A stretch of DNA of 20,607 bases from a virus, in IMG/VR virus record IMGVR_UViG_3300024273_001771, positions 1 through 20,607 of that record, one strand, 5' to 3'. The stretch's first letter is position 1. Each line of letters begins with the position of its first letter. Shown here piece after piece: positions 4,956-19,258 of the stretch. The notes under the pieces were generated by a model. It had not been told where the DNA came from, did no database searches, and was given only the letters and a program-made list of their open reading frames with translations. Made by a program: the position numbers and the translations under genes.

Positions 4956-5618
4956 ATGCTACTCACTACACACTCAAATATTCGACTCATTGGCTATCCT
5001 GACGCCGCGTTGACTCAGGAAATGTATTATTATTTTTCAAAAGAGTCAGGTATGACTGTAGAAATAGTAAGCCCCGAATGGGTGTTGAGTAAGGACCACG
5101 AGAGTTTAAAAAACTTTTCGTACATGATATCTTTTACTCTAAACAAACATCTTCGATTAAAAGTAATTAATAGAATTGAAGATTTAAAGTTAGATTGCAT
5201 AATTTACTGTCACAACAGTTCCATTCTAAATTTTGATGTAACCGATGTTGCTTTAGTAAAAAAAATAATTGGCCATGGAACATTTATTGGTCCTTTAAGT
5301 TTTGTTCTAATAAGCTCGACTATAGGAAAACACTGCATAGTTGAAGCAGATGTAAAAATTAGCCATCATGTGTCAATTGGCAACAATGTAATTATACACC
5401 CGATGGTAGGGATTGCTGGAAGATCAACCATTGGAAATAACTGCGAAATTAACATAAAATCAGCAATTTTCCCCAAAATAACAATATGTAATAATGTGTT
5501 AGTAGGGGCCCTAACCGACATTACTAAGGACATAACAGAATCAGGAAAATATGTAGGGTTTTCTACTGGTCGCAGATCTGTCAGGCGTGTTGGTAATTTT
5601 CCGTCTGACACTAATTAA
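4956..5618 (+). CDS. Hexapeptide-repeat sugar O/N-acyltransferase (NeuD/PglD-like)
   Basis: This probably transfers an acetyl or other acyl group to a nucleotide-linked or glycan sugar. The 220 residues follow the NeuD/PglD layout: an N-terminal sugar-nucleotide-binding region (NIRLIGYPD, 8-16) and a left-handed beta-helix of hexapeptide repeats (about 106-195; for example STIGKHCIVEADVKISHHVS at 121-140). The His pair at 137-138 sits where PglD has its catalytic His. It is the first gene of a three-gene unit. The next start lies 2 bases after the stop, and the downstream DegT-like gene suggests the classic pairing in which an aminotransferase makes an amino sugar that this enzyme acylates. 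No ribosome binding site is seen before the ATG. Family firm, substrate unknown. Confidence 0.85.
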   Translation: MLLTTHSNIRLIGYPDAALTQEMYYYFSKESGMTVEIVSPEWVLSKDHESLKNFSYMISFTLNKHLRLKVINRIEDLKLDCIIYCHNSSILNFDVTDVALVKKIIGHGTFIGPLSFVLISSTIGKHCIVEADVKISHHVSIGNNVIIHPMVGIAGRSTIGNNCEINIKSAIFPKITICNNVLVGALTDITKDITESGKYVGFSTGRRSVRRVGNFPSDTN

Positions 5619-5620
5619 AT

Positions 5621-6307
5621 ATGTATCAAACTTGGCCAAATCATTCCATTGTTGAAAACTTCTCAAGACCCGACCTACGTATGTTATGCGAGCAAGGTTA
5701 TACTTGGGAAGATCCTTTTGAGATAGTAGAAATTTTTGAAAATAAAATAGCAAAATTTGCAGGGGCTGAACACGCTATTGCGGTTGATTGCTGTAGTCAC
5801 GGGTTATTCCTATGTCTAAAATACTTAAAAGCATCTGGCAATGTAACAATACCTAAACATACTTACGCTAGTGTTCCGATGCAGATTTTGCATACTGGTT
5901 GTAACGTAACATTTGATAATACGCAGTGGCAAAAACGATACAAGTTACATCCTTACCCAGTATGGGATGCAGCCGCTTTGTGGGAACCAAATATGTTTGT
6001 TGATGATTTTTCGGTAATATCATTTCAAATAAAAAAACCTATTCCAATCGGCCGGGGAGGAATGATTCTAACAAATGACGAAACTGCTAGTGATTGGTTG
6101 CGGCAATCCCGTTATGATGGTAGAAAAATTAAAGGCCAACAGAATAGTGAAAATATAAATTTGTTGGGATGGCATTACTATATGACACCCGAGGATGCAG
6201 CTCGTGGAATTTTGCTATTTGACGCATTACATTCCAGCACTAACATCCCTAGTTGGCAAAATTATGTAGATGTTTCATTAAACGATGTTTTTAAAAATGA
6301 TTGTTGA
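5621..6307 (+). CDS. Short DegT/DnrJ/EryC1/StrS aminotransferase-like protein
   Basis: Family members are PLP enzymes that aminate keto-sugars. This one has only 228 residues against about 370 in the family. The large domain is present: AGAEHAIAVDCCSHG (47-61) is the cofactor-phosphate region, VWDAAAL (114-120) has the PLP-ring Asp116, and SFQIKKPIPIGRGG (134-147) places the PLP lysine at K139 by comparison with SFHPxK in relatives. The small C-terminal domain is missing; similarity stops near AARGILLFDAL (193-203) and the next gene starts inside the last codons. It could be an active minimal form, work with another subunit, or be a decaying enzyme. The stop-start joint before it is TAA-AT-ATG, also seen at the 18036/18033 joint. 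Fold assignment good, activity uncertain. Confidence 0.82.
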   Translation: MYQTWPNHSIVENFSRPDLRMLCEQGYTWEDPFEIVEIFENKIAKFAGAEHAIAVDCCSHGLFLCLKYLKASGNVTIPKHTYASVPMQILHTGCNVTFDNTQWQKRYKLHPYPVWDAAALWEPNMFVDDFSVISFQIKKPIPIGRGGMILTNDETASDWLRQSRYDGRKIKGQQNSENINLLGWHYYMTPEDAARGILLFDALHSSTNIPSWQNYVDVSLNDVFKNDC

Positions 6308-7514: not shown

Positions 7515-8621
7515 ATGGCAAAACCATTTGACATTTCGAAGTTCCGCAAGGACATCACAAAAAGCATTGAGGGACTAAGCATTGGATTTAACGATCCAAC
7601 AGACTGGGTCAGCACTGGCAATTTTGCATTGAACTATCTTATCTCAGGAGACTTTAACAAAGGTATTCCATTGGGCAAGGTCACAGTGTTTGCTGGCGAA
7701 TCTGGCGCTGGCAAAAGTTACATCTGTTCTGGAAACATTGTAAAGAACGCACAAGATCAGGGAATTTTTGTTATTTTAGTAGATACCGAAAATGCACTTG
7801 ACGAAGCATGGTTACATGCACTCGGAGTTGATACCGGCCCAGCCAAGTTGCTTAAACTCAACATGAGCATGATCGACGACGTTGCCAAGGCAATTTCGAC
7901 ATTTATGATTGATTACAAAGCATTGCCGGAAGAAGACCGCATGAAGGTGTTGTGGGTCATTGACTCGCTGGGCATGTTGCTCACACCAACTGACGTTAAC
8001 CAGTTCCAAGCTGGTGACATGAAGGGCGACATGGGTCGTAAACCCAAGGCATTGACTTCGCTGGTGCGTAACTCTGTTAACATGTTTGGTAATCACAATG
8101 TGGGATTGGTCGCAACAAATCATACATACGCTAGTCAAGACATGTTTGATCCCGATGACAAGATCTCCGGTGGTCAAGGCTTTATCTATGCATCAAGTAT
8201 TGTTGTTGCAATGAAAAAGATGAAGCTTAAAGAAGACGAAGACGGCAACAAGATTACTGATGTTATGGGTATCCGTGCAGGTTGTAAAGTAATGAAAACA
8301 CGCTATGCTAAACCTTTCGAGGGCATGCAAGTCAAGATTCCGTACTCAACTGGCATGAGTCCACACAGCGGTCTAGTTGATCTTGCAGAACGAAAACAAA
8401 TTCTCAAGAAAGAAGGAAACAGTTTAGTGTTCATCACCGGCGACGGCGAAGTGATTAAACAGTTCCGCAAAAAATGGGAAGCAAATACCGACGGGTGTTT
8501 AGACAAGTTGATGGCAGAATTTGCAAAACAAGCAGAAGCAAAAGATGCAGTGATTGAACTGGCACAAGCGGTTGCAGAAACTGATGCAGATGACTCGCCA
8601 GAACTAATAGAAGGAGAATAA
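7515..8621 (+). CDS. uvsX: UvsX, RecA-like recombinase
   Basis: UvsX forms filaments on single-stranded DNA and drives strand invasion, which in T4-like phages also starts replication. The 368 residues carry a Walker A motif GESGAGKS (61-68), the catalytic Glu region LVDTENALDEAW (88-99, E93), a Walker B strand VLWVIDSLG (145-153), and LVATNHTY (198-205), the RecA-type motif at the end of the ATPase core. Loop segments around 165-180 (GDMKGDMGRKPKAL) fit the DNA-binding loops. Length is close to T4 UvsX (391). A ribosome binding site (AAAAAGG, ending 6 bases before the ATG) fixes the start. It heads a tight unit with the small acidic gene and uvsY. The last 15 residues are acidic. Confidence 0.95.
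   Translation: MAKPFDISKFRKDITKSIEGLSIGFNDPTDWVSTGNFALNYLISGDFNKGIPLGKVTVFAGESGAGKSYICSGNIVKNAQDQGIFVILVDTENALDEAWLHALGVDTGPAKLLKLNMSMIDDVAKAISTFMIDYKALPEEDRMKVLWVIDSLGMLLTPTDVNQFQAGDMKGDMGRKPKALTSLVRNSVNMFGNHNVGLVATNHTYASQDMFDPDDKISGGQGFIYASSIVVAMKKMKLKEDEDGNKITDVMGIRAGCKVMKTRYAKPFEGMQVKIPYSTGMSPHSGLVDLAERKQILKKEGNSLVFITGDGEVIKQFRKKWEANTDGCLDKLMAEFAKQAEAKDAVIELAQAVAETDADDSPELIEGE
8611..8616 (+). promoter_or_regulatory. Strong ribosome binding site inside the end of uvsX
   Basis: AAGGAG lies 7 bases before the ATG at 8624 and overlaps the last codons of uvsX. It is the best match to the anti-Shine-Dalgarno sequence in this unit and suggests high translation of the small acidic protein. Confidence 0.75.
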
Positions 8622-8623
8622 GA

Positions 8624-8881
8624 ATGTCAGCTGATTTATCAAGTGAAATTTGGAACGAACTCAAGCGATATGTCAACACTGTTGATCGTCAAGAGGCCGC
8701 GGAAGTATTGGTATCTGTTCTTGTTGACAACGATATCGCTCCTGACGACATCCGTGTCAATTTCAAAGGTGACAATGATGTAAAGTTAGCACTGGCCGCT
8801 TACATTAAAGATCTTGACGACGAGCCCGAAGAAGAAGAGTACGACGATGAAGACGACGAAGAGTCAGAGTTTGAAGACTAA
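8624..8881 (+). CDS. Small protein with a very acidic C-terminal tail, between uvsX and uvsY
   Basis: I cannot name this 85-residue protein. Residues 1-60 look like a small helical domain (DLSSEIWNELKRYVNTVD, then QEAAEVLVSVLVDND). The last 25 residues are nearly all Asp and Glu (DEPEEEEYDDEDDEESEFED). Such tails often mimic DNA or bind basic DNA-binding proteins. Its place between uvsX and uvsY, behind a strong ribosome binding site, suggests a part in recombination, for example tuning UvsX, gp32 or UvsY loading. That is inference from position and charge only. The gap to uvsX is 2 bases and to uvsY 2 bases. Confidence 0.82.
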   Translation: MSADLSSEIWNELKRYVNTVDRQEAAEVLVSVLVDNDIAPDDIRVNFKGDNDVKLALAAYIKDLDDEPEEEEYDDEDDEESEFED

Positions 8882-8883
8882 CT

Positions 8884-9336
8884 ATGTGGTATAATCGTGT
8901 TACAGCAAATTTGGGAGAAATCCCAAATTTTATTGCATACTTTGAAAAAGAGCTTGATGCAGCACGACGAGATTGCGCAATCGGCGGTATGGTAGAAAGA
9001 AACATTACTGCACTGCCCGGTATGACAGAACATAGATTTAATCAGCTTCAGGAAATTGAAGCTGTGTTGAATCATCTTAATATCCAGTTGCGCAAGATCC
9101 GGCGCAAGCATTTCCAAAAGTATTTAGAAGGCTATGCCCGAGCATTGACCAGTAGAGATGCTGAAAAATATGTCGACGGCGAAGACGAAGTGATTGACTT
9201 TGAAACAATCATCAACGAAGTTGCATTCTTAAGAAATCGATTCCTGGGCATTATGAAAGCAATGGAAAGTAAAAACTTCATGCTGGGGCATGTAGTGCGT
9301 CTAAGAGCAGCAGGAATGGAAGATATACAACTATGA
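8884..9336 (+). CDS. uvsY: UvsY-like recombination mediator
   Basis: UvsY helps UvsX displace gp32 from single-stranded DNA. This protein of 150 residues (T4 UvsY has 137) is helical and charged, with a basic middle (QLRKIRRKHFQKYLEGYARA) and a C-terminal helix pair ending in FLGIMKAMESKNFMLGHVVRLRAAG, written here in two overlapping halves: FLGIMKAMESKNF and NFMLGHVVRLRAAG. These align well with the T4 UvsY end, where a GILLDFC..ALDAIKSRGF segment is followed by an IKHIQDMRA segment. The position two genes after uvsX supports the call. Its last codon overlaps the ATG of the next frame (ATGA). No strong ribosome binding site is visible, so coupled translation is likely. Confidence 0.8.
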   Translation: MWYNRVTANLGEIPNFIAYFEKELDAARRDCAIGGMVERNITALPGMTEHRFNQLQEIEAVLNHLNIQLRKIRRKHFQKYLEGYARALTSRDAEKYVDGEDEVIDFETIINEVAFLRNRFLGIMKAMESKNFMLGHVVRLRAAGMEDIQL

Positions 9337-9428: not shown

Positions 9429-10250
9429 TAATCTTGCCAGTGGTAGTCCAGATGCAATTTCTTCTGGATACCATTCTGTATGTGCCAGTTGTTCTAACCA
9501 TTCGTCTCGGCACGGTCTACTTGGGTTGTTAATAGCCAACAGGTCTAAATTTCCAACTGGTGCTGCCAAACTGGTACTATCAACAAACGCCGGGACACCT
9601 GCTAACACAGCTTGTGATCCTGGTCCACTGTTGTGATTGATCACTGCCCATGCAGTGCGTAAACACCGATCGTAATCAAAGTTATCGTAAGTTCCCGGCA
9701 CTGGCTGCGGAGTTTCAATCAAGCATCCTGGTATATTGCCTATACGCTGCCGTGGATGCGGCCGTATAACAATAGGCCTGTCTGTGTACAATCTAATCTT
9801 ACGAACAGTTTCTGTTAACCATGCCACTGTGGGAGGCTGTCCGGACCATTGTTCACTGTCGGAACGCTGTGCAGCAATGACAATATTATATCCCGAGTTG
9901 GTCCATGGCATTGCCTCTAGCCGCAACTTCGCTGCACGATCTGGTATCATCTCGCTGCCGTAGTATGCACTACTACCGGTGCCGTTTAGCCCCAGCTTCC
10001 ATGTAGCACCACGACGCAGCATGCCTACTTCTGCTACAATAACTGATCTACCGCTGTTCCTGAATGTTTCCCACACAGCACGATTGTACTTCATACGACC
10101 GTGCCAAAGCTGACTCCATATCACAGCAACATCTGCTGAACTGTCCATGCTGTTGTGCTGTATACCAAGCTGGTCCAACCCTGTACGGATGGCATTAAAC
10201 ACGGGAGGGCTATTGAGCGCACCGTACTGGTCAAAAATACTTACTATCAT
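9399..10250 (-). CDS. KpsS-like capsule/glycan biosynthesis protein (paralogue A)
   Basis: The protein has 283 residues and a GT-B-type C-terminal half. YTDRPIVIRPHP is followed by a segment AWAVINHNSGPGSQAVLAGV, then PAFVDS. This 'RPHP ... NHNS ... G.pa' layout is that of KpsC/KpsS and CDP-glycerol glycerophosphotransferase-like proteins, in which the His and Ser-rich loop binds the nucleotide sugar or phosphate. It is a close paralogue of the gene at 15535-16443 (same YTDRPI..RPHP, same WAV.NHNS). A ribosome binding site (AGGTG at 10259-10255, minus strand) is 4 bases before the ATG. The gene stands alone on the minus strand and its 3' end marks the edge of the large island. Transfer function is likely; the substrate is unknown. 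Confidence 0.8.
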   Translation of the reverse strand: MIVSIFDQYGALNSPPVFNAIRTGLDQLGIQHNSMDSSADVAVIWSQLWHGRMKYNRAVWETFRNSGRSVIVAEVGMLRRGATWKLGLNGTGSSAYYGSEMIPDRAAKLRLEAMPWTNSGYNIVIAAQRSDSEQWSGQPPTVAWLTETVRKIRLYTDRPIVIRPHPRQRIGNIPGCLIETPQPVPGTYDNFDYDRCLRTAWAVINHNSGPGSQAVLAGVPAFVDSTSLAAPVGNLDLLAINNPSRPCRDEWLEQLAHTEWYPEEIASGLPLARLLSSHPGNAS

Positions 10251-12408: not shown

Positions 12409-12969
12409 ATGAGTAGTATTATAATTAATAATTTGCCAAACATAAAAGAATATTCATATCTTGAACTCGGAGTCAATGACAACGTTAATTTTAATAAAAT
12501 TACCGCCAAGCTCAAAGTCTCTGTTGACGTTAACGGCAATGCAACGTTCACTGGCACAACAGATGAGTATTTCGCAAGTCTGTTGCCGACGGACAGCTTT
12601 GATATTATCTTTATTGATGCATGTCATGATTACGAATATGTGCTTCGGGATTTTAACAATGCAGTGATGCATGCCACCAAGTGGGTATTGCTGCATGATA
12701 TGATTCCTCCGTCAAGAAAACATACACAACAAAAGTTTTGTTCAGACAGCTATAAAATTCTGTTCTACATGCTGAGTAAAGAACAGTTTGAGATCTACCC
12801 AATGGATAATAATTTTGGACTAACATTGATTAAAATGCCAGCATCGAAGATTTATCCGTCTGACGATTACCGGGACACACCGTATGATAAGTTCTTAGAA
12901 TTCATAACGGCTGCAAAACTATACAGCGATGCAGAGATAATTGCTATGTTAGGAAATGAAAATGTTTAA
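12409..12969 (+). CDS. Class I SAM-dependent methyltransferase (Methyltransf_24-like)
   Basis: The protein of 186 residues has a compact Rossmann core. YLELGVNDNVNF (17-28) is the SAM-binding motif I, SVDVNGNATF (38-47) the acidic loop after strand 2, and FDIIFIDACHDYEYVLRDF (63-81) the strand-4 region with the FIDACHDY signature of the Methyltransf_24 group that often methylates sugars. WVLLHDM (106-112) follows. The gene starts directly after the previous stop codon with AAGG 10 bases before the ATG. Its 3' end overlaps the next start. A sugar O-methyltransferase role is likely from context. Substrate unknown. Confidence 0.82.
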   Translation: MSSIIINNLPNIKEYSYLELGVNDNVNFNKITAKLKVSVDVNGNATFTGTTDEYFASLLPTDSFDIIFIDACHDYEYVLRDFNNAVMHATKWVLLHDMIPPSRKHTQQKFCSDSYKILFYMLSKEQFEIYPMDNNFGLTLIKMPASKIYPSDDYRDTPYDKFLEFITAAKLYSDAEIIAMLGNENV

Positions 12970-13942
12970 TAATACCCGAATTTTTGTAAGTGGTGCAACA
13001 GGCTCATGGGGGCAAACACTAATAGCGATGCTGTTAGAAAAATACAATGTAAAAGAAATTATATGTTTTTCCCGCGGCGAGTTACAACAGGTATTAATGA
13101 AAAGAAAATTTAACAACCCTGCGCTTAAATTTGTAATAGGAGATGTTAGAGATTACGAGTCGGTTAAAAGTGCAACAAAGAATGTTGATTACATCTTTCA
13201 TCTTGCTGCACTAAAACATGTTCCTGTATGCGAAGAGAATGTGCAAGAGACTATTAAAACAAACATAAATGGCACAACTAACATTGTTAATGCAGCAATT
13301 GAGAATCGTGTTAAAAAAGTAATTGACGTATCGTCTGACAAGGCGGTTGAACCCATCAACCTATACGGCATGTCAAAGTCGGTGGGCGAGAAAATTGTAA
13401 TTCAAGCAAACGATCTAAGTGACTACACCAAGTTTGTTTGTATTCGCGGCGGCAATGTAATGGGGTCAAGCGGCTCTGTTATACCGTTCTTTATTGATCA
13501 AATCAAAGCCGGTGGTCCAATTACTATTACAGATGTAAGAATGTCTAGGTTCTTCCTTACATTAGAAGAAGCAATCTTGCTGTTGTTCAAAGCATCAATT
13601 GACAGCATCGGCGGCGAAACATTTGTAATGAACATGCCTGCTTGTTATATCAAAGATCTAGCGGAAGTATTGATGGAAACATACGGCACAGTTGATATAC
13701 ACGAAACTGGTATACGACCCGGCGAAAAATTAGACGAGATGCTGATTTCTCATCATGAATCTAGCCTATCGTATTGCTACGATAACAATTACTTCCTGAC
13801 GTTGCCTGCTAATTTTAACCAAACACTAGCAGTTAGATATCAGGATTGCGAGCCGTTCCCGCATGTTGAGTTCTCGTCCAGAACAACCATTATGAACAAA
13901 AATGAAATTAGAAAAATGCTCATCAATGGGAAATTTATATGA
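12962..13942 (+). CDS. UDP-GlcNAc 4,6-dehydratase/5-epimerase-like (CapE/WbvB type)
   Basis: This NAD(P)-dependent SDR enzyme probably turns UDP-GlcNAc into a UDP-4-keto-6-deoxy-L-hexulose. The glycine motif FVSGATGSWGQTL is at the N-terminus. GDVRDYESV and HLAALKHVPVCEENV follow; the latter matches the CapD/FlaA1/CapE 'AA.KHVP..E' signature. SSDKAVEPINLYGMSKSVGEK, split here as SSDKAVEPINLYG and YGMSKSVGEK, is the active-site region. CIRGGNVMGSSGSVIPFF and TDVRMSRFF are further CapE-type blocks. I chose the ATG at 12962 because AGGA (12951-12954) is 7 bases before it. The ATG at 12956 is only one base from AGGA. It overlaps both neighbours and pairs with the reductase that follows. Family firm, exact product inferred. 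Confidence 0.9.
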   Translation: MFNNTRIFVSGATGSWGQTLIAMLLEKYNVKEIICFSRGELQQVLMKRKFNNPALKFVIGDVRDYESVKSATKNVDYIFHLAALKHVPVCEENVQETIKTNINGTTNIVNAAIENRVKKVIDVSSDKAVEPINLYGMSKSVGEKIVIQANDLSDYTKFVCIRGGNVMGSSGSVIPFFIDQIKAGGPITITDVRMSRFFLTLEEAILLLFKASIDSIGGETFVMNMPACYIKDLAEVLMETYGTVDIHETGIRPGEKLDEMLISHHESSLSYCYDNNYFLTLPANFNQTLAVRYQDCEPFPHVEFSSRTTIMNKNEIRKMLINGKFI

Positions 13943-14757
13943 AAATTTTAGTAATAGGTGCCGGCGGCATGGCCGGGCATGTTGTTAGCAAGTACCTTAT
14001 GCAACAGGGACACACGGTCATAACTTCTGCCAGAGTTAACTCTGACATCAACATCAATATTGAACGCGTTGCACATAACGATTCATTTTTTAGTATGCTC
14101 ACTGATTACGATTTTGTTATTAACTGTGCGGGATTGCTGGTTAAAGACAGTATTGTTCGACCTGACCGCGCTGCACTTATCAATGCATGGTTTCCGCATT
14201 ACCTCGAAAACTCTGTTAGAGATACACCTACTAGGTTAATACACTTGTCAACTGATTGCGTATTTGACGGCAAAGAAGGAAACTATGTAGAGACAGCAGC
14301 CCATAGCGAAACCAATGCATACGGTCGATCAAAGTCTCTTGGAGAAATTAATAATTCTAAAGATATTACATTTAGGATGAGCATCATTGGGCCTGAAATT
14401 AAAACAACCGGCACAGGACTTTTTCACTGGATCTACACATCTGCACAGCAGGATCTACAAGGATGGGATAATGCTTGGTGGAACGGCATTACCACTGTGG
14501 AGTTGGCAAAATGCATCAACAAGTACATTAACAATCCAACAATAGCAGGAACATATCACCTGGTCAACAATGCCAATAAGATTAATAAATTTGATCTATT
14601 GTCTAAGATCAACACAGAATTTCAGTTGGGTAAAAACATTGTTAGAACCAATGGACCAAAACCAGTTAATAAAATTCTGGTGGACACCAGACAAGAATTT
14701 GACTTTGGAATCAGCGATTACGATACAATGCTGTTAGAATTAAAATCATATGTGTGA
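13939..14757 (+). CDS. RmlD/WbvR-like sugar-nucleotide reductase
   Basis: This SDR enzyme of 272 residues probably reduces the 4-keto group of the product of the gene before it. The start MKILVIGAGGMAGHVV has the NAD(P) glycine motif, FVINCAGLLVKDSIV follows, and LSTDCVFDGKEGNYVET (83-102 region) with YGRSKSLGE is the RmlD signature, including the catalytic Tyr and Lys. In RhaNAc pathways (WbvB then WbvR) such a pair makes UDP-L-RhaNAc, which a 2-epimerase (WbvD) turns to UDP-L-QuiNAc. No epimerase is seen in this window. ATGA overlap and GGGA 7 bases before the ATG. Its last 40 bases overlap the 3' end of the converging minus-strand operon. Confidence 0.88.
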   Translation: MKILVIGAGGMAGHVVSKYLMQQGHTVITSARVNSDININIERVAHNDSFFSMLTDYDFVINCAGLLVKDSIVRPDRAALINAWFPHYLENSVRDTPTRLIHLSTDCVFDGKEGNYVETAAHSETNAYGRSKSLGEINNSKDITFRMSIIGPEIKTTGTGLFHWIYTSAQQDLQGWDNAWWNGITTVELAKCINKYINNPTIAGTYHLVNNANKINKFDLLSKINTEFQLGKNIVRTNGPKPVNKILVDTRQEFDFGISDYDTMLLELKSYV

Positions 14758-16443: not shown

Positions 16444-17351
16444 TTTATTTTTTCCCAGAATTCTTCAGTTGCCTCGCGGCATTCGTCCAATGCATCAATA
16501 TCAACTACAACATTGTCGACTATATCTTTCCAGTCGTTGTCACGACTTAAAATATGCGGCATATGTTTCATGCTTAGAAATTTGCTACTCCACGCATCGA
16601 CTACTATAACTCGCTTGCCCAGCAGCATACCCCAGTAAGCACCGTGATAGCTGTTGGTTAAAATTATGTTTGCACTGCCCAGTAGTTCGATCGTTTGGTC
16701 AATATTACTTCCTGAATTTACAAATCGAGGAATACTATCGTTGCCGAAGTTTTTAATCAACTGTTTTTTGTGTTCAAAGAATATTACGTCGTTTTTAATG
16801 GCGTATTTCTTGGTCAATGCCGGATGCATACAACTGGCACACGGTACCCACGGTTGATTTTGATTCCAGTCACGGATTCCTACCTGGTCGAAACTCATAA
16901 GCCAGTCTGGGTACTTGACTATTGCAGTCCCGCGTTTTTCAAGCGGCCCATTGTGCCCAGCACCCCAAATATGTCTCGGAGCTGTAATAGGCTTAATTTT
17001 ATTCATGTACTTTTTAATAAAATTTCTATGAGCAAATATAAATTCTTCATGAGATTTTTCATTGGCTTGATCTTTTAACTCCCATTTGTGTTGTTGTATT
17101 TGGATCAGTTGATCTAGATCTGCCGACGGCAGCAATGTCTGGATAGTATCTCCGAAGAACTCATTGGCGATCAATCCACCACCGCCTACTACCATTGGTA
17201 GTGTAGAGTTGTATGCAGTATTTTTTACTTGTGTAATATCGACTACTTGATATTCGTCGGGTTTAAGGAAATACTGCAACGGATTGCTAGCAAGATCACC
17301 GACATTATTTTTATCGGCCCGGTGTACCACTGTAAATTTAGTTTTACTCAT
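16440..17351 (-). CDS. Polysaccharide pyruvyltransferase-family protein
   Basis: Family members add pyruvate ketals to sugars from phosphoenolpyruvate, or transfer other groups. The 303 residues show NNVGDLASNP (15-24), the family's 'n.GD' start, then VVGGGGLI (54-61), IWGAGHNG (128-135), GIRDWNQ (157-163), PCASCMHPAL (169-178), and ILTNSYHGAYWGMLLGKRVI followed by VVD. The Ser-Tyr-His-Gly motif is the conserved active-site loop. Overlaps 8 bases with the gene before (17344-17351). A negatively charged ketal would change the surface charge of a glycan. Family good. The donor is not certain, as many phage members are untested. Confidence 0.85.
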   Translation of the reverse strand: MSKTKFTVVHRADKNNVGDLASNPLQYFLKPDEYQVVDITQVKNTAYNSTLPMVVGGGGLIANEFFGDTIQTLLPSADLDQLIQIQQHKWELKDQANEKSHEEFIFAHRNFIKKYMNKIKPITAPRHIWGAGHNGPLEKRGTAIVKYPDWLMSFDQVGIRDWNQNQPWVPCASCMHPALTKKYAIKNDVIFFEHKKQLIKNFGNDSIPRFVNSGSNIDQTIELLGSANIILTNSYHGAYWGMLLGKRVIVVDAWSSKFLSMKHMPHILSRDNDWKDIVDNVVVDIDALDECREATEEFWEKIK

Positions 17352-18033
17352 TGTGTGTTCTTTGCTGACAGAATTCAGTCAGTGCGCGTTCGTTATGCCA
17401 TTCTTCGCCCTGTGGAGTATCTGCAAACTCGTCAAAGCAAGGTGTACCCAGTGTGTAGTGCAGTAGTTTAGCGTCAGGGTTTGCTCCGTATTCATCGGGC
17501 AACCAGTTCCACTCTCTTGGCAACTCGCCGATTCGGCTATCGTCTAACCAAGTAAATCTATGCAGCTCTGCACCTGAGGATTTTTGTATAAACTCCGGAG
17601 TCAGTTGCCTATTGGGAAAACTGCTGCAATTCCAGAGTATAACACTACTCCAGTTCTTGCGCGGATAGTCTTCGTTCTTGCTGCCGAGATACTTGATTGG
17701 CATTTTTGTTTTGTAATCGTGCTTGACTACCATTACATCCATATAGGGATTTTGTAGATTCCAAAGTTTAGCAATGTCGTCGCGTACAATCATATCACCG
17801 TCGATAAACAATGCCCAGTTACTGAACCCTGTCAGGTGTGGCACTAGGAATCGTGTGTAGATAAAATGATTAGATCCGTCTTGGTGTGTTTCTTTATAGT
17901 CAGTAAACAAGTTCAGTGCTACTGGTATAATAGAAACCGGTCGAGTCGAATGGCGAATAATGCTGTTGACACAGGTATGATAAGCAATGGCTTCTCGTGG
18001 ATCGTATCCGATAAAAATAGGAATAGGTAGCAT
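17344..18033 (-). CDS. GT8-like glycosyltransferase
   Basis: The protein has 229 residues of a short GT-A type. IFIGYDPREAIAYHTC (6-21) is the nucleotide-binding start, ALFIDGDMIVRDDI (74-87) has the DxD metal site (DGD), and NWSSVILWNC (126-135) with LHYTLGTPCFDEF near the end are typical of a GT8-like family seen in marine bacteria and phages. The first Asp-Gly-Asp and the final His would hold the metal and donor. The previous gene ends 2 bases before the ATG through a TAA-AT-ATG joint. Donor and acceptor unknown. Confidence 0.85.
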   Translation of the reverse strand: MLPIPIFIGYDPREAIAYHTCVNSIIRHSTRPVSIIPVALNLFTDYKETHQDGSNHFIYTRFLVPHLTGFSNWALFIDGDMIVRDDIAKLWNLQNPYMDVMVVKHDYKTKMPIKYLGSKNEDYPRKNWSSVILWNCSSFPNRQLTPEFIQKSSGAELHRFTWLDDSRIGELPREWNWLPDEYGANPDAKLLHYTLGTPCFDEFADTPQGEEWHNERALTEFCQQRTHNE

Positions 18034-18035
18034 AT

Positions 18036-18494
18036 TTAAATAATTTCTACAGATCGATTCGAACAGTCGGCAATAATATATCCGCCTGCACTGATGTATT
18101 TACAATCACTCCACTGACCGTCTAGCAAAGCAGCAAACGATTCTTGTGTAAATGATTGTCGCCATTCTGATTTAGGAACAGATCTGGACAATATCAGAAT
18201 GATAAATCTATCAGCAAATGGTTTTATTGAACGGACAAATTCAGCAGGATCTTTAAGATATTCTAAAACACCCAGTACAAGACCTACATCGTAATGCTTG
18301 TTTAATGCAACAGTGTCGATGTCAAAGTCAATTTGAATATCAGCAGTAGCAGTACAATCTAACCCTGTATACTCACGGAATGATTGATAGTTTAATACAC
18401 TGCGGTCGCCACACCCAAAATCAACCACGCTGCAACTAGCCAGATCAAATTGATCTAACAGTTTATTACGCCATGCCCAGATTGGTTCAGTCAT
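18036..18494 (-). CDS. Class I SAM-dependent methyltransferase
   Basis: The protein has 152 residues. VVDFGCGDRSVLNY (23-36 region) is the SAM-binding glycine motif. YTGLDCTATADIQIDFDIDT holds the acidic loop after strand 2. YDVGLVLGVLEYLKDPAEFV is the strand-4 and helix region with a typical 'gvleyl.dp' pattern. It is short and lacks an insert for a protein or DNA target, which fits a small-molecule or sugar methyltransferase. Its start shares one base with the stop of the gene before (TAATG). This is a different type from the methyltransferase at 12409. Confidence 0.82.
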   Translation of the reverse strand: MTEPIWAWRNKLLDQFDLASCSVVDFGCGDRSVLNYQSFREYTGLDCTATADIQIDFDIDTVALNKHYDVGLVLGVLEYLKDPAEFVRSIKPFADRFIILILSRSVPKSEWRQSFTQESFAALLDGQWSDCKYISAGGYIIADCSNRSVEII

Positions 18495-19258
18495 TATTTT
18501 CTTTCGATGTCCTCTTCCTCACAGCTTTCACCGTATTGAATTTCTATTACTTTCAACGGCTTGTCTGTTTCATTGCACAATTGATGCCACTCGTTCAATC
18601 GTATCCATGTATTTTGATGTGCATCCAGTGTGGCAAGTAACTCACGCTCGGGACTGTACGGGTCAACTGTGTACACAGCAGCCTCGCCCTCGGCCACGAA
18701 CCAGAACTCTGCTCTGTGCTCGTGACGTTGCATACTAAGGCAAGTCTTGGGATTGACAGTTAGCTCTTTAAGTTTGACATTTGCTCCGACTTCATGCAGC
18801 ACACGATAGTATCCCCAGGCACGACCAGTCTTGGGTGTTTTCCACTCTTCCAGTATCCACGAACTGCTGTTGGCTTTGTTGGTTCCACCTATGCCAAACA
18901 CAAATTCAAGATGATCATCTACCATCATCATTTCGGGAATGTTTTTTTCAGTTCTATCACCGCCATTGGCAAACACAATGTCTGCGTCGGGATACAGCAT
19001 CCGGACATTTTTAATAGCTTCGATTGCCGAACCGTCATCGTCGTTGAACAAGATGACTCCGTCCACTGCTTTTAAATTTTCAACAATTGACACTCGTTCG
19101 GTCACTGGCATAAACGATCTACCTTTTTTACGGGCAAGCCATGCGTCGGAATTAACACCTACTATCAGCATATCTCCCAGTTTGCGAGCTTCTTTAAAAT
19201 ATGCAATATGTCCCGAATGAATAGGGTCAAATCCCCCAGATACTAAAACTATTTTCAT
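18494..19258 (-). CDS. Cytidylyltransferase-like domain fused to a type II mannose-6-P isomerase-like cupin
   Basis: Residues 1-140 (numbered from the ATG at 19258) form a nucleotidyltransferase of the TagD/HldE-C type: GGFDPIHSGH (8-17) has the HxGH active site, GVNSDAWLARKKG (34-46) follows, and MPVTERVSIVENL (50-62) is the equivalent of the ISSTxR-type motif. Residues 155-254 form a cupin like the C-terminal domain of type II mannose-6-phosphate isomerase: MQRHEHRAEFWFVAEGEAAV (176-195), a metal site from H179, H181 and H225, and IEIQYGE (238-244). The first domain would activate a sugar or polyol phosphate with CTP or ATP; the second may isomerise or bind sugar phosphate. I chose MKIVLVSGG at 19258 over the upstream ATG because a late motif ends 5 bases before it. 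The first gene of the minus operon. Confidence 0.85.
   Translation of the reverse strand: MKIVLVSGGFDPIHSGHIAYFKEARKLGDMLIVGVNSDAWLARKKGRSFMPVTERVSIVENLKAVDGVILFNDDDGSAIEAIKNVRMLYPDADIVFANGGDRTEKNIPEMMMVDDHLEFVFGIGGTNKANSSSWILEEWKTPKTGRAWGYYRVLHEVGANVKLKELTVNPKTCLSMQRHEHRAEFWFVAEGEAAVYTVDPYSPERELLATLDAHQNTWIRLNEWHQLCNETDKPLKVIEIQYGESCEEEDIERK

Follow-up and report, generated by a model that had tools for sequence, protein, structure and literature searches.

The viral contig record IMGVR_UViG_3300024273_001771 (20,607 bases; hereafter the window, meaning the whole stretch of DNA that was analyzed) carries a gene for a two-domain fusion protein, which sequence comparisons identify as a probable enzyme of GDP-mannose synthesis. 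The gene (18494..19258, minus strand; ATG at 19258, stop codon at 18494-18496) encodes 254 amino acids. An N-terminal HxGH cytidylyltransferase-like nucleotidyltransferase (NT) is joined in it to a C-terminal cupin of the phosphomannose isomerase (PMI) type. The protein is proposed to be a bifunctional PMI/mannose-1-phosphate nucleotidyltransferase, of which the HxGH half is non-orthologous to known mannose-1-phosphate transferases and most likely uses GTP. The window was assigned to a T4-like phage, because it also has genes for a terminase large subunit and for the recombinase UvsX, besides many glycan genes.

In the proposed pathway, the cupin would act as a metal-dependent type II PMI that converts fructose-6-phosphate to mannose-6-phosphate, phosphomannomutase (PMM) would convert the latter to mannose-1-phosphate, and the NT would combine mannose-1-phosphate with a nucleoside triphosphate, most likely GTP, to give GDP-mannose. 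The fusion would cover steps 1 and 3. The host would supply PMM, since the surroundings of the phage gene showed none; tblastn with two bacterial PMM queries found none in 154 viral loci. Mannose-1-phosphate is strongly indicated as the NT substrate by the fusions and operons described below. GTP is the presumed donor because the NT is linked to GDP-mannose dehydratase (GMD) and Fcl, both of which act on GDP-sugars, and the chemistry of PMM and GMD points to the alpha anomer of mannose-1-phosphate.

Domain Composition and Active Sites

The N-terminal domain (residues 1-139; 18842..19258, minus strand) matched PF01467 (CTP_transf_like) on residues 6-101 with an E-value of 1.8e-15 and 57.7 bits (gathering score 21). 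The C-terminal domain (residues 145-253; 18500..18826, minus strand) matched PF01050 (MannoseP_isomer) over its whole length with an E-value of 1.5e-22 and 80.4 bits (gathering score 23.6). Both scores agree with the first-pass annotation, made from the sequence alone, which had read the gene as an HxGH cytidylyltransferase-like domain followed by a type II PMI cupin. Membership in the HxGH superfamily is further indicated by an HSGH motif and by fold matches to TagD (1coz, Z 16.1) and HldC (5xf2, Z 15.4), and that in the type II PMI cupins by the Ser, Gln, His and Arg of the PMI motif and by a fold match to Thermococcus PMI (7zvm, Z 16.2, rmsd 1.7). The protein matched no curated equivalog among the NCBIfam models. 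For the N-terminal half the nearest was HldE domain II (TIGR02199; 81.1 bits, cut-off 181.5), and the TagD equivalog (TIGR01518) gave 44.9 bits (cut-off 165.4). The nearest for the C-terminal half was GMP_PMI (TIGR01479; 66.2 bits, cut-off 372.95), aligned at positions 358-460 only. This match is confined to the cupin part, so the N-terminal GT-A NTP_transferase domain of ManC is missing from the fusion, in line with the earlier remark that its transferase is unlike that of ManC.

Conservation was examined in a 37-member alignment of close relatives (A1), an alignment of 41 diverse fusions (A2), a further alignment (A3) and an alignment of 15 standalone and PMM-fused cupins (A4). An artifact of assembly or chance is excluded as the origin of the layout by the 81 full-length copies aligned and by the 118 of 254 positions that are invariant in A1. 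The nucleotide-binding motif HSGH (residues 14-17; 19208..19219, minus strand) is invariant in A1, and its H14, G16 and H17 also in A2 and A3. The lysine pair K44-K45 (19124..19129, minus strand) is invariant in A1, A2 and A3. GGDR (residues 99-102; 18953..18964, minus strand), which belongs to the family signature FANGGDR, is invariant in A2 and A3; HldC carries GGDY at this position. NSSSW (residues 130-134; 18857..18871, minus strand) lies where the HxGH superfamily has its second motif; S131 and S132 are invariant and S133 is kept in at least 90% of the sequences (A2, A3). The invariant NT positions of A2 thus include H14, G16, H17, K44, K45, FANGGDR at 96-102, K128, S131 and S132.

Cupin motif 1 (residues 175-184; 18707..18736, minus strand) holds the phosphate, metal and catalytic residues of PMI (S175, Q177, H179, R182 and E184), all of which are invariant. 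H225 in motif 2 (18584..18586, minus strand), presumably the fourth metal ligand, is invariant in A2 and A4. The A2-invariant cupin positions, which also include E239, E248, D250 and R253, are likewise invariant in the standalone and PMM-fused cupins of A4. Ser95, Gln97, His99 and R408, given as important PMI residues in PMC9602691, align to S175, Q177, H179 and R182. A loss of active-site residues upon careful alignment, named beforehand as an outcome that would speak against the fusion, was not seen: the NT and cupin motifs are intact in A2. The suspicion that a cupin without H181 would have a broken metal site was abandoned, as H181 is absent from the residues that PMC9602691 describes for PMI and Q177, H179, E184 and H225 are invariant.

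Whole-chain structure prediction, suggested earlier as a check, was performed with AlphaFold on A2 and gave a mean pLDDT of 93.9 and a pTM of 0.68, with the two halves matching TagD 1coz and Thermococcus PMI 7zvm. This model replaced one based on A1, in which the linker was poor (pLDDT 76.8).

Fusions and Operons of the NT

NT-PMI fusions were found in the window, in hundreds of phage contigs, and in SAR11 and SAR86. The Patescibacteria extend this series with an NT-PMM fusion (L283; PMM PF03332, E 8e-15), a single 665-residue NT-PMI-GMD protein (L142/L275; 587 bits with the GMD equivalog, cut-off 415) and a PMI-NT fusion of reversed order that is divergent from GMD (L293). The NT is accordingly found fused with PMI, with PMM and with PMI-GMD. 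Patescibacteria also have NT-PMI genes next to HAD-type genes, and one of these HAD-type genes (L276) gives a match to PMM. In Holosporaceae and gut alphaproteobacteria, PMI-PMM fusions lie beside a standalone NT (L148, L155, L162), and a separate NT adjoins a PMI cupin in a PMI-NT-GMD operon (L147). Further operons have the orders NT-GMD (L150), GMD-GDP-fucose synthase-NT (L304, L305) and PMM-NT-glycosyltransferase-GMD (L310). All other enzymes from fructose-6-phosphate through GDP-mannose to GDP-fucose are thus fused or adjacent to the NT; guanylyl transfer is the only step left without a known enzyme. In one alphaproteobacterial glycan cluster (L303, genome G016), two near-identical NT genes (1818-2246 and 9781-10212) lie approximately 8 kb apart.

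Absence of ManC and Linkage to GMD

The linkage was evaluated across genomes that carry the NT, many of the genomes surveyed being incomplete metagenome-assembled genomes or single-cell assemblies. In 46 of 50 such genomes, TIGR01479 matched the cupin only or gave no convincing transferase match; canonical ManC was hence rejected as the supplier of GDP-mannose there. GMD scored above its cut-off in 21 of the 50. In the alphaproteobacterial order that includes G016 (153 genomes), the NT was present in 48, GMD in 24 and both in 22. The NT thus occurred in 22/24 genomes with GMD versus 26/129 others (one-sided Fisher 2e-11), and the NT-GMD distance was below 2.5 kb in all 22 genomes that have both. 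The ManC transferase domain was found by TIGR01479 in none of these 153 genomes, and the cupin in 143. GMD is therefore closely linked to the NT in genomes devoid of the ManC transferase domain.

Similar exclusion was observed more widely. Among 240 genomes sampled across the class, the NT (10 genomes) and ManC (137 genomes) never overlapped (p 1.6e-4), and among the genomes without ManC, GMD was present in 6/10 with the NT versus 11/93 without it (p 0.001). Of 384 Patescibacteria, 89 carried the NT and 20 a cupin-bearing ManC, again with zero overlap (P 0.004). Transferases beyond the reach of TIGR01479 (Rv3264c type, NF052502) were sought among the PF00483 matches of 23 genomes. No match at all was obtained in G001 and G004, both of which have GMD and the NT. 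Ten matches from other GMD-bearing genomes were typed; RmlA, GalU, GlmU, RfbF and GlgC types were among them, and none of the ten passed a mannose-1-phosphate guanylyltransferase cut-off. The first-pass annotation had seen in the fusion a possible different solution to coupling the isomerization and activation of a sugar. This idea gains weight from the fusions and linkage of the NT with PMI, PMM, GMD and GDP-fucose synthase and from the missing ManC transferase domain, and the evidence supports mannose as the sugar concerned.

Distribution and Phylogeny

A profile search of uncultivated viral contigs for the fusion gave at least 600 matches, and 574 relatives were confirmed, the best 80 of which are all full length. 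In phage records searched by tblastn, standalone NTs of approximately 50% identity were detected in cyanophages, and no full-length fusion was found. A genome scan detected full-length fusions of 34-55% identity on SAR11, SAR86, Rhodobacteraceae and Patescibacteria contigs, and standalone NTs of 51-60% identity in other alphaproteobacteria and SAR86. A tree of 56 NT domains, built with a short search and weak in many inner branches, set the family apart from other HxGH proteins (95% SH-aLRT) and placed the phage fusions among SAR11, cyanophage and alphaproteobacterial members. Cupin gain or loss needs approximately seven changes on this tree, and NT-cupin coupling is therefore recurrent. The architecture is thus common, one half of what had been named as evidence against its novelty; the other half, that it be well characterized, did not hold, as no characterization was found in the literature (open-licence PMC papers).

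Assessment of the Proposed Function

Several observations weigh against GDP-mannose synthesis by the fusion. The preference for GTP is drawn from the linkage to GMD and Fcl, not from residues, and the nearest known enzymes take ATP (HldC) or CTP (TagD). Some members have other partners: the NT is joined to GT2 in L154 and L161, and an 892-residue protein (L152:5751-8426) combines GT2, CDP-glycerol-transferase-like and NT domains. In Patescibacteria L294-L302, the NT is followed by a C-terminal part of approximately 200 residues with a weak match to the diadenylate-cyclase domain DisA/DAC (PF02457 in L298, E 3.5e-4, below gathering), and these DAC-like fusions are left unexplained by the GDP-mannose model. 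A ManC-like transferase is present in 4 of the 50 NT-bearing genomes (G020, G047, G048, G049), and about half of the NT-bearing genomes in the order of G016 lack GMD. Eleven genomes of the class-wide sample have GMD with neither ManC nor the NT, so that another transferase must exist, for example of the Rv3264c type. The p-values above overstate independence, because the rows are related genomes. On the phage side, a GMD-like gene was detected in only 5 of the 35 larger NT-bearing contigs tested, and the window itself showed no GMD. Lastly, the pTM of 0.68 leaves the packing of the two domains unsure.

One alternative is that the NT forms another NDP-mannose (ADP-, CDP- or UDP-mannose) or has a mannose-derived sugar as its substrate, with an unrecognized enzyme supplying the GDP-mannose for GMD. 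The sequence does not reveal the base specificity, ATP or CTP is the substrate of close superfamily members, and GMD is missing from some NT-bearing genomes. This reading is nonetheless improbable in view of the tight GMD/Fcl linkage in genomes that lack the ManC transferase domain, two of which lack any GT-A match.

It is similarly unlikely that the NT is an HldE-C-like heptose-1-phosphate nucleotidyltransferase, with the cupin replacing GmhA on sedoheptulose-7-phosphate in a route to ADP- or GDP-heptose. HldE domain II is the nearest curated family by score, PHROG 7878 bears the HldE name, and HldC matches its fold at Z 15.4. The 81 bits are, however, far under the cut-off, and the cupin has the catalytic residues of PMI intact. 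The partners of the NT in fusions and operons include PMM, GMD and GDP-fucose synthase, and no heptose operon was spotted next to it in the gene neighborhoods that were read. The heptose route had been the first idea, taken from the HldE score, and was dropped after the neighborhoods were read.

A TagD-like glycerol-3-phosphate or other polyol-phosphate cytidylyltransferase, carrying the PMI cupin as an unrelated passenger, is very unlikely. TagD is the top fold match of the NT (Z 16.1), some cyanophage records are annotated in this way, and L152 joins the NT to a CDP-glycerol-transferase-like domain. Against this, the NT scores 45 bits with the TagD model (cut-off 165.4), a genuine TagD (195 bits) is encoded separately on the L152 contig, and a passenger cupin would leave the PMI, PMM and GMD fusions unexplained.

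Least probable of all is a phage cupin reduced to a binding or regulatory domain without isomerase activity: H181, the middle histidine of HxH, is indeed unconserved among the phage copies, but it is not among the PMI residues given in PMC9602691, S175, Q177, H179, R182, E184, H225 and R253 are invariant in A2 (n = 41), and the fold comparison ranks Thermococcus PMI first. The suggestion made earlier that the cupin may merely bind the product is likewise less likely, because the PMI residues S175, Q177, H179 and R182 are invariant in the 41 fusions and in the standalone cupins.

Gene Context in Phages

A GT8-like glycosyltransferase (17344..18033, minus strand; PF01501) is the conserved downstream partner of the fusion and the presumed user of the activated sugar. 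Of 154 viral loci, 134 have a co-oriented homologue downstream, with a median center offset of 719 bp, and in most phages it comes immediately after the fusion. In the window, a methyltransferase (18036..18494, minus strand; PF13489), which has homologues in 5/154 viral loci, lies between the two. uvsX was nearby in 108/154 viral fusion loci, and the NT-PMI/GT8 cassette is near uvsX, in the replication module, in most related phages (L001-L236). The standalone NT of cyanophages is flanked by DNA polymerase and uvsX. In the window, the cassette is inverted on the minus strand approximately 10 kb from uvsX (see positions 7515-9336), from which a glycan region of approximately 9 kb separates it.

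GDP-mannose made by the fusion would most likely feed the adjacent GT8-like transferase and other phage sugar genes, leading to remodeling of host or virion surface glycans, although this final use is only weakly indicated. A further, improbable idea is that the cassette, commonly next to uvsX, activates mannose for glycosylation of the phage's own DNA; it would then be the GDP-mannose counterpart of T4, in which DNA is glucosylated from UDP-glucose. L271, one of the five phage records with a GMD-like gene, contains an acyltransferase-DegT-GMD run, and such an acyltransferase/DegT pair together with a GMD-like gene suggests a perosamine-type sugar. At 4956-6307, the window encodes a hexapeptide acyltransferase and, after it, a short DegT-like aminotransferase of 228 aa, without GMD. 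A Polysacc_synt_2 dehydratase followed by an RmlD-like reductase (12956-14757) forms an apparent second nucleotide-sugar pathway.

Comparison with Known Systems

The synthesis of GDP-mannose, a central sugar donor, has to our knowledge been described only with GT-A type transferases. The NT family is uncharacterized and widespread, and is probably a non-orthologous GDP-mannose enzyme. Among open-licence PMC papers, no HIGH-motif GDP-mannose enzyme and no assay of the NT family were found, nor were the mannose assignment, the NT fusions or the link to ManC absence. If true, this second transferase family would fill a gap in GMD-bearing SAR11, SAR86, Patescibacteria and gut alphaproteobacteria that lack the ManC transferase domain. 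Annotations in phages and bacteria, among them "heptose-1-P adenylyltransferase" and "glycerol-3-P cytidylyltransferase", would also be corrected by it.

PMC7824862 assigns HIGH-superfamily NTs to NDP-sugar synthesis and, in general terms, places them together with cupin isomerases in the sugar clusters of cyanophages. These proteins, together with the S-SCSM1 MPI (PMC9602691), belong to the same families as the two halves of the fusion, but they are encoded by separate genes; in the passages retrieved from the two papers, the fusion is not mentioned and the NT is not given a role with mannose. The fusion may account for part of the abundant signal of "mannose-6-phosphate isomerase" that PMC9602691 describes in ocean viral metagenomes.

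Thermococcus PMI (7zvm, 7zvy) is a small cupin PMI and the top structural match (Z 16.2) to the C-terminal domain, though it is standalone and only distantly similar in sequence. TagD has the same fold and a similar size to the NT domain, but a different gene context. The C-terminal domain of HldE and HldC share the HxGH fold and activate a sugar-1-phosphate of manno configuration; the NT differs from them in its FANGGDR and NSSSW signatures and in its linkage to mannose rather than heptose genes. The closest functional parallel is ManC/AlgA/PslB (TIGR01479), which likewise unites steps 1 and 3 of GDP-mannose synthesis in a single chain and ends in a homologous PMI cupin. Its transferase is a GT-A NTP_transferase of approximately 350 residues, whereas that of the fusion is an unrelated HxGH domain of approximately 140 residues.
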